From NCBI RefSeq assembly GCF_014596525.1, contig NZ_MSJP01000022.1, positions 124,001 through 188,000 on the forward strand: DNA of 64,000 bases. Reading direction: 5' to 3'. The stretch is from Streptomyces sp. CBMA291 (GTDB taxonomy: Bacteria; Actinomycetota; Actinomycetes; Streptomycetales; Streptomycetaceae). The notes under the pieces were generated by a model that had not been told where the DNA came from, did no database searches, and saw nothing but the letters and a program-made list of their open reading frames with translations. Shown in pieces: positions 41,949 through 45,032 of this stretch; position 1 is the stretch's first letter; every line of letters begins with the position of its first letter. The translations under genes and the position numbers were made by a program.

Positions 41949-42689
41949 TCACGAGCCGTACGGGCGGACCGCCTTGGCGTCCTTGAGGGCCCGGCCCCAC
42001 CAGGCCAGCTGGTCGAAGAGGGTCTTGGCGGCGCCCTCGGCCCCCGCCGGGTCCTTGGGACGCCCGTCCTCGTCGAACTGCCCGTGGGCATGGTGGAAGG
42101 AGACGGTGTCGCGGACCGTGACGGCGTGCAACTCGGCGAAGACCTGACGCAGGTGCTCGACCGCCCGCAGACCGCCGGAGACGCCTCCGTAGCAGACGAA
42201 GCCGACGGGCTTGGCCTGCCATTCCGTGTAGTGCCGGTCGATCAGGTTCTTGAGGGAGGCGGGGTAGGAGTGGTTGTACTCGGGGGTGAGGACGACGAAG
42301 GCGTCGGCGGCGGCCAGCACCGGGGAGACCTTGGCGAGTTCGGCGCGGACCGCCGGGGACGGGTCGTAGGAGAGGGAGGTGGGCAGGTCGAGATCGGCGA
42401 GATCGACGACGGTGACGGCGAAGTCCTCCCGCTCGGCGAGCCGGGAGCGGAGCCAGTCCGCGACGACGGGGGCGAACCGCCCCTCGCGGTCGCTCCCCAC
42501 GACGAGAGCGAGCGCAAGCGGCTCGGCGGCGGAGCCGGAAGAGACGACGGATTCGGAAGAGACGGCAGACTCGGAGGAGACGGTGGATTCGGAAGAGGCG
42601 GTGGATTCGGAGGAAGCCGCAGCCGTCGAAGAGGCGAGAGAGGCCGAAGAGGCGGAAGCGGAGGCCTTGTTGGCGTCATTGATGTCCAT
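41949..42689 (-). CDS. NADPH-dependent FMN reductase with Ser-rich N-terminal extension
   Basis: A 246-residue flavodoxin-fold reductase. Residues 1-55 are almost only Ser, Ala, Glu and Val, built from a 6-residue repeat (SSESTV/SSESAV/SSESVV). The conserved domain follows: LALVVGSDREGRFAPVVADWL for the phosphate loop and LTPEYNHSYPASLKNLIDRH, with CYGGVSGGLRAVEHLR later. It reduces free FMN or quinones using NADPH. A SoxR-like box lies 17-34 bp upstream, so it is likely induced by redox-active compounds; Streptomyces coelicolor SoxR is known to control a reductase of this type in this region. The extension may not be translated if a later start is used. Confidence 0.85.
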   Translation of the reverse strand: MDINDANKASASASSASLASSTAAASSESTASSESTVSSESAVSSESVVSSGSAAEPLALALVVGSDREGRFAPVVADWLRSRLAEREDFAVTVVDLADLDLPTSLSYDPSPAVRAELAKVSPVLAAADAFVVLTPEYNHSYPASLKNLIDRHYTEWQAKPVGFVCYGGVSGGLRAVEHLRQVFAELHAVTVRDTVSFHHAHGQFDEDGRPKDPAGAEGAAKTLFDQLAWWGRALKDAKAVRPYGS

Positions 42690-42705
42690 GCAGAGAAGCG
42701 TGCTA

Positions 42706-42723
42706 CCTCAAGCTTGGTCGAGG
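42706..42723 (-). promoter_or_regulatory. SoxR-box-like operator
   Basis: On the minus strand CCTCGACCAAGCTTGAGG is an 18-bp dyad matching the SoxR box form CCTCAAG-N4-CTTGAGG at 16 of 18 positions, with the right half exact. A TTGACC -35 element (42727-42722) overlaps its edge, as in MerR-family promoters. Confidence 0.65.
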
Positions 42724-42781
42724 TCAAGCACGAGTCCGGACGACTTTTCCCGCCCCCTTGGCCCGGCCGTACGGTGAGGGG

Positions 42782-43813: not shown

Positions 43814-44329
43814 ATGCGCACCCCCGTCCGTCTCCTCACCGGTACCGCGCTGACGGTGGTCGCGCTCGGGGTGTTCGCCGCCCCGACGGCGTACGCCAAC
43901 GAGCACGAGCGTCCCGAGCCCCTGGAGATCTACCCGGCCACGGCCTCCCCCGGCACCACCGTCAACGTCCACACCCGCGCCTGCGGCAAGCACGGGCACG
44001 GCGTCGGCGACGCGAACGCGCTGGGCGCGGGCGAGTTCCAGCTGCACCCGAGCGGCCGCGAGGAAGTCGTGGTCGGAGAGTTCCGGGTGCCGGAGCACGT
44101 CCGGCCCGGCACCTACGGCATCAGCGTGGCCTGCGACAACGGCAAGACGGCCCGGGGTGACCTGGAGGTCGCCCGCCGGGGTCCGAGCGGCCATGTACCG
44201 ACCGGAGTCGGCGGCAGCGTCGGCCCCGACATCACCCAGGTCACGGCGGGTGCGGCGGTGCTGGCCGCGACCGCCGTCGGCGGGGTCTGGCTCCTGCGCC
44301 GCCGGGCGAGCGGCGCGCAGGGCCACTGA
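43814..44329 (+). CDS. Secreted protein with C-terminal membrane anchor
   Basis: A 171-residue protein from ATG 43814 (GGAGG about 6 nt upstream). The signal peptide ends near TAYA. A beta-rich extracellular domain of about 100 residues (LEIYPATASPGTTVNVHTRAC then FRVPEHVRPGTYGISVAC) has a Cys pair, and a single C-terminal helix is followed by LLRRRASG, the pattern of cell-wall or membrane-anchored surface proteins. There is no LPxTG. The class F sortase 85 bp downstream makes a functional pair plausible, although the sorting signal is not canonical. Confidence 0.75.
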   Translation: MRTPVRLLTGTALTVVALGVFAAPTAYANEHERPEPLEIYPATASPGTTVNVHTRACGKHGHGVGDANALGAGEFQLHPSGREEVVVGEFRVPEHVRPGTYGISVACDNGKTARGDLEVARRGPSGHVPTGVGGSVGPDITQVTAGAAVLAATAVGGVWLLRRRASGAQGH

Positions 44330-44414
44330 GACCGACCGCCCCCCTGCCCCCGCCGGGCCCCGTGCGTGACCGGCGGGGGCAGGCCACAGCCACGCGCCGA
44401 CCGAGGGGAGCCAG

Positions 44415-45032
44415 GTGAGCAACAGGAGCAAGGGGTGGGGTCTCGCCGTCGCCGCCTGCGTGGGGCTCTGGCTCGTCCAGAACGGCTCGGAGCAGGTCAC
44501 CCCGCCCGTACCGTCAGCGGCCCAGGCCTTCGCCGCCGGGCCCAGCGTGCACACCGACGCCGCCGCCGACCCGCTGCCGCCTTCGCCGCCGGTCCGGCTG
44601 CGCATCCCCGAGACCGACGTGGACACCCCGCTGACCCCGCTCGGGCTCTCGGCGGGCGGTTCGCTCGACGTGCCACCGGCCGGGAACCGGAACCTGGCCG
44701 GCTGGTACCGGGACGGCACGGCGCCCGGCGCCAAGGGCACCGCGATCGTCGCGGGGCACGTCGACAACGCCGAGGGACCGGCCGTCTTCTACACGCTCGG
44801 CGCGCTGCGCAAGGGGCACCGTGTGGAGGTGGACCGGCGGGACGGGCGTACGGCCGTGTTCACGATCGACGCGGTCGAGGTGTACGCGAACGAGGACTTC
44901 CCCGACCGGCGGGTGTACGACGAGGCCGACCGCGCCGAGATCCGGCTCATCACCTGCGGCGGCGGCTTCTCGAAGAAGAACGGCTACCAGGGGAACGTGG
45001 TCGCCTTCGGGCACCTCATCGGGGTGCGGTGA
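44415..45032 (+). CDS. Class F sortase
   Basis: A 205-residue protein; GTG 44415 follows GAGGGGA. It has one N-terminal membrane helix, a Pro/Ala linker, and a sortase beta-barrel beginning RLRIPETDVDTPLTPLGL. The catalytic His is in IVAGHVDN and the Cys in RLITCGGGF. The usual catalytic Arg after the Cys strand is not obvious (GYQGNVVAFGHL). Class F sortases are extracytoplasmic transpeptidases or related hydrolases whose substrates in Streptomyces are poorly known. Likely partner: the secreted protein just upstream. Confidence 0.87.
   Translation: MSNRSKGWGLAVAACVGLWLVQNGSEQVTPPVPSAAQAFAAGPSVHTDAAADPLPPSPPVRLRIPETDVDTPLTPLGLSAGGSLDVPPAGNRNLAGWYRDGTAPGAKGTAIVAGHVDNAEGPAVFYTLGALRKGHRVEVDRRDGRTAVFTIDAVEVYANEDFPDRRVYDEADRAEIRLITCGGGFSKKNGYQGNVVAFGHLIGVR

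Follow-up and report, generated by a model that had tools for sequence, protein, structure and literature searches.

A gene coding for an NADPH-dependent FMN reductase-family protein of 246 aa (41949–42689, minus strand) and a divergently oriented class IV aminotransferase gene (PF01063; 42782–43552, plus strand) lie in the window, a 64,000-nucleotide stretch of a contig of Streptomyces sp. CBMA291. The original prediction placed a SoxR operator ahead of the reductase gene. The designation “FMN reductase” holds at the Pfam level (PF03358, FMN_red; E=5.4e-40, residues 61–202), but the solved structures matching the protein are, besides a yeast protein, those of chromate reductases, azoreductases and a quinone reductase. 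Its first 50–60 residues form a Ser/Ala/Glu-rich linker. An 18-bp tandem repeat of 4.7 copies (42527–42611) encodes the Ser/Glu-rich linker at the N-terminus, and the linkers of reductase homologues are very different in length and make-up. Elsewhere in the window (43814–45032), the gene of a GVDTG sorting-domain protein adjoins that of a class F sortase, the two products probably forming a sortase/substrate pair.

Read on the minus strand, the promoter region has the order TTGACC-TCGACCAAGCTTGAGGTAG-CACGCT-TCTCTGC-ATG, with the start codon at 42689. The −35 element TTGACC (42722–42727), recognized from the sequence and from its invariance in homologues, overlaps the predicted SoxR operator CCTCGACCAAGCTTGAGG (42706–42723), in which a G for the nearly invariant A at the fifth base is the sole departure listed. 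In the direction of transcription the two run from 42727 to 42722 and from 42723 to 42706, respectively, confirming the observation as to place and strand and bearing out the proposed overlap of −35 element and dyad on the reductase strand. The −10 element CACGCT (nAnnnT; 42697–42702) is separated from the −35 element by 19 bp and from the reductase ATG by 7 nt. An overlong 19-bp spacer is characteristic of MerR/SoxR promoters. A reading with a conventional 16-bp spacer, from TTGACC to TAGCAC, was rejected, because in the promoter-bearing loci among the best 80 of at least 554 homologous ones nAnnnT occurs at 16, 17 or 18 bp in 0/76 and at 19 bp in 76/76 cases; a sigma-70 scan considering only spacers of 16–18 nt found no promoter at the site. 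The match of the dyad at 16 of 18 positions, as given in the original prediction, is reproduced with the consensus of the homologues (17/18 with the locus L012), but not with the E. coli soxS box, with which only 13/18 bases are shared. Six of the nine half-site pairs within the dyad are self-complementary.

Within three mismatches, the window holds no second match to the dyad, as compared with 5 of 100 shuffled sequences that had one, and the significance of the single window sequence is only moderate. When the pattern TTGACCTCRASN4STTGAGG was searched for in the strain's own genome (G000), the window site was the only exact match, the next best site having one mismatch; the R was, however, chosen to admit the G of the window, and with A at this position the window site would count one mismatch as well. 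Allowing up to three mismatches, the genome yielded 15 rows compared with 5 for the reversed control, a background which would leave some room for a dyad arising by chance in GC-rich DNA. The reality of the site is settled by its conservation. The reductase core, used as query, gave matches to at least 594 stretches, at least 554 of which were confirmed, and among the best 80 loci, which were kept, 76 have a TTGAC-plus-dyad promoter of fixed geometry; 76/80 upstream regions scored ≥15/20, but only 1/800 dinucleotide shuffles of such regions did so. With the genome pattern counts and this comparison of homologues with shuffles, a chance match could be discarded, its residual probability being negligible.

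Two sites of the strain's own genome (C18:27847 and C3:21899) were dismissed as further candidates, since TTGAC is missing ahead of their dyad matches. The site at C54:10565 (L090), which precedes the gene of a small helix-turn-helix-like protein (with a match to Pfam HTH_67 below its cut-off), is a probable second SoxR target judging from its sequence. Proteins resembling the L090 product by eye follow CTTNAA-type sites elsewhere (L170, L188, L189).

Loss of the site in orthologs had been named as the outcome that would speak against a SoxR operator; instead, the site is kept in the 76 loci mentioned above, the upstream flanks around it being poorly conserved. Considering only loci without an adjacent soxR gene (best 80 of at least 554), the site is present in 56/60, with TTGACC invariant in 56/56. 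The promoter is absent at four of the best 80 loci (L064, L072, L075, and L085), and SoxR is present in all four genomes. A further 29 loci of relatives, the window locus excluded, divide into 14 with and 15 without the promoter, the latter comprising 14 matches of ≤63% identity and a split gene (L126). In L126 (G010), the reductase homologue extends over two reading frames, and the genome lacks an exact canonical SoxR box. The ATG follows the −10 element by 6–8 nt in 72/76 homologous sites, by 10 nt in one, and is not found within reach in three; because of this short distance, the reductase transcript is probably leaderless, with a 5′ end that coincides with the ATG at 42689 or lies close to it.

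Base 9 of the 22-mer comprising −35 element and dyad deserves attention: it is G in the window, but A in 56/56 site-bearing loci without adjacent soxR (best 80 of at least 554). Due to this substitution, genome G000 contains no match to the strict pattern TTGACCTNAAN6TTNAGG, and SoxR binding may be weak. If the change had cost tight binding altogether, the site would be a decayed operator and the reductase would now be expressed constitutively or not at all. We regard this as unlikely: the remaining promoter geometry of the window is intact, another reductase promoter (L114) carries this G, too, and its spacing is preserved, and two one-mismatch sites in other genomes (G065 C1:615006 and G069 C150:4198) also read TTGACCTCGA.

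The genome (6.9 Mb, 116 contigs) codes for a single protein above the SoxR cut-off of TIGR01950 (233.6 bits; cut-off, 116.9 bits). Its translation contains the cluster motif CX2CXCX5C (CIGCGCLSLETC) with its four cysteines, and the recognition-helix stretch AVSALHFYE.KGLITS is nearly identical to that of E. coli SoxR (PDB 2ZHG), which likewise is HFYE. Of 44 SoxR proteins placed in a tree, 19 with HFYE (H-type), including that of the strain itself, lie on one side of a branch with support 99/96; the other 25 are RFYE (R-type) and comprise the SoxRs encoded next to reductase genes as well as L152, L161, and L162. The canonical box (≤1 mismatch), searched for in 29 genomes, occurs in 18/18 of those whose best SoxR is H-type and, among the others, in G069, which has an R-type relative (FYESKG), and in 3/10 of the rest (G050, G052, and G054), while its reversed control gave one match over all 29. 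A set of 121 genomes of the same genus, which overlaps the set of 29 (e.g., coordinates in G006, G098, and G116 recur in G060, G065, and G066), contains 101 with a SoxR of ≥222 bits (33 typed, all H) and 15 with only a lower-scoring SoxR (all 15 typed, all R); G108, with a partial H-type protein, and four genomes without a SoxR match at E ≤ 1e-45 were left out of the comparison. Exact TTGACCTNAAN6TTNAGG sites were found in 95/101 H-type genomes compared with 7/15 R-type-only genomes (p 2e-5), and exact TTGACTTNAAN6TTNAAG sites in 23/101 compared with 11/15 (p 2e-4); the reversed controls of both patterns gave no match in the 121-genome set. The H-type SoxR of G108 (L276, C123:980237–980572) covers model positions 1–113 only and is possibly truncated, no cluster cysteines being present in the stretch read. 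SoxR matches at E ≤ 1e-30 are missing from 13 of 15 genomes of the same order.

These data also bear on the idea that a MerR-family regulator other than SoxR acts at the window site. The genome does encode 13 additional proteins with weaker matches to the SoxR model, and other SoxR-like proteins seem to use other dyads, but CCTNAA boxes track the high-scoring H-type SoxR in the comparison just described, and the reductase family has been shown to be controlled by SoxR in S. coelicolor (PMC4146615); we consider such a regulator very unlikely.

Most probably, the site serves as operator in a MerR-class reductase promoter, on which the single SoxR encoded in the genome acts in trans. The proposal of a SoxR operator ahead of the reductase is thus supported by the single SoxR with its E. 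coli-like helix, the retention of the site, the invariant 19-bp spacer and the precedent of SCO2478 (see below). From what can be read directly, i.e., site, spacing, conservation and the soxR gene, we infer binding, activation, a leaderless start and the type of substrate as follows. Reduced SoxR would occupy the overlong 19-bp spacer without activating transcription. As established for SoxR in general, activation involves the oxidized 2Fe-2S cluster and distortion of the DNA; redox-active compounds would accordingly oxidize the cluster, and the resulting distortion would align the −35 and −10 elements. The aligned promoter would then give rise to a leaderless reductase mRNA, and the enzyme might reduce flavin, quinone or similar substrates. 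A role in self-protection, as originally suggested, is plausible by analogy; coping with compounds from outside fits, too, because SCO2478 also answers to foreign phenazine methosulfate (PMC4146615, PMC5288332).

Among the best 80 loci, 20 have a soxR gene that adjoins the reductase gene and is divergent from it, and in several relatives, most clearly L035, L042, and L048, soxR is placed between the reductase and aminotransferase genes. The operator of these loci is CTTNAAC / CCTGAACC ... GTTTAA. Leaving out the four site-less loci, the left half-site CCTC occurs in 48/56 loci without and 0/20 with adjacent soxR (Fisher p 3e-12, uncorrected for kinship), and TTTA in the right half in 1/56 and 17/20, respectively (Fisher p 5e-13, likewise uncorrected for kinship). 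When all 80 loci are typed by two bases of the right half, 16 are mixed and four have no site. Individual exceptions comprise L022, with TTTA in the right half and no soxR beside the reductase; L051, with the hybrid operator CCTGAACC...GGTTCAGG and no adjacent soxR; L078, with a TTGAGG right half despite an adjacent soxR; L030 and L048, with adjacent soxR and no TTTA; and L117 (G025), with an R-type operator and no adjacent soxR, in a genome that yielded no SoxR match at E ≤ 1e-30. A frame upstream of the L117 reductase appears transposase-like by eye, and the local soxR may therefore have gone through insertion.

On the best tree, which is unrooted, the label “adjacent soxR” requires eight changes, only two of which are forced by well-supported branches. 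The 20 loci consequently do not represent 20 independent events, and an independent-pairs test could not reach significance. As four of the five non-Streptomyces loci have an adjacent soxR (L047, L058, L078, and L079, but not L085), the soxR-reductase pair may be the older state. A dedicated R-type soxR may once have lain beside the window reductase as well and been lost as the operator turned into one of the canonical CCTCAA kind.

CTTNAA-type sites occur within 250 bp of the SoxR gene in 0/101 cases for SoxRs of ≥222 bits, 9/24 for those of 195–222 bits, and 4/8 for those of 181–189 bits. The last mentioned constitute a third group (G081, G093, G103, and G114), in which TTGACTTCAAGNNNNCTTGAAG sites were found near 4/8. 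In genomes with no SoxR above the cut-off other than an R-type one (G049, G053, and G057), CTTNAA-type sites lie ahead of further genes. One of these, at L190, codes for a transketolase according to Pfam, and the gene at L186 reads as a transketolase by eye; the product of L191 is a probable ABC transporter falling slightly short of the Pfam cut-off, and that of L183 resembles an alcohol dehydrogenase. The product of L187 was read as a monooxygenase by eye only, Pfam giving no match, and behind L184 and other CTTNAA-type sites no nameable gene was found.

Regulator and operator thus seem to have switched together. Taking these observations jointly, we lean towards the view that actinobacteria have at least two predicted types of SoxR DNA specificity: an H-type (SALHFYE) acting in trans, which would read CCTCAA/TTGAGG, and an R-type (SALRFYE), often divergent from the reductase gene, which would read CTTNAAC/GTTTAA. 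Loss or replacement of a type would rewrite operators, with capture of a single gene into the trans regulon in the lineage of the window and, in R-type-only lineages, what looks like a change of operator at several targets, among them the transketolase and ABC transporter genes; a third, more distant group (181–188 bits) is often found beside CTTCAAG...CTTGAAG. The correlations of MerR residues with bases listed in PMC5045206 do not directly match the operator differences, most of which concern half-site positions absent from its table, the register being that of our own alignment. Within the open-access papers covered, we found no prior account of an R-type SoxR beside a reductase or of operator switching. 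Combining one enzyme family and one promoter geometry with two SoxR types and two operators, the loci amount to a natural experiment in the co-change of sensor and DNA site, and in several lineages the neighboring gene is constant across the two types, too. They yield a testable prediction as to the SoxR residues that determine operator choice and would aid prediction of SoxR regulons where a search for the canonical box fails.

The core finding is known in kind, because SCO2478 is a published SoxR target (PMC4146615, PMC5288332), and the window site would add one more strain to a known SoxR regulon. The SCO2478 gene of S. coelicolor, annotated as “flavoprotein reductase”, depends on SoxR, and a putative SoxR site precedes its homologues in six other Streptomyces (PMC4146615); its transcripts serve as a readout of SoxR activity (PMC5288332). 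The regulon, which also includes an ABC transporter, a quinone oxidoreductase and a monooxygenase (PMC4146615), responds to actinorhodin; for SCO2478, a response to the foreign compound phenazine methosulfate is described as well (PMC4146615, PMC5288332). PMC4146615 further mentions a predicted SoxR site at a transketolase gene of S. avermitilis, and a box upstream of about 13 percent of the soxR homologues in other Streptomyces. The window promoter agrees with the description of SCO2478 in that a predicted SoxR box precedes a flavoprotein reductase gene, a putative counterpart of SCO2478; it differs by having G in place of a nearly invariant A. With the E. coli soxS promoter it shares an overlong 19-bp spacer that holds a dyad of the form CCTCAAG...CTTGAGG, with 13/18 bases in common, but its target is an enzyme, whereas soxS codes for a second regulator. 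Also close are the divergent soxR-reductase modules of other actinobacteria (20 of the best 80 loci, e.g., L042, L073, and L047), which have the reductase family, the 19-bp MerR-type promoter and, in several cases, the neighboring aminotransferase in common with the window, but possess their own R-type SoxR and the corresponding operator.
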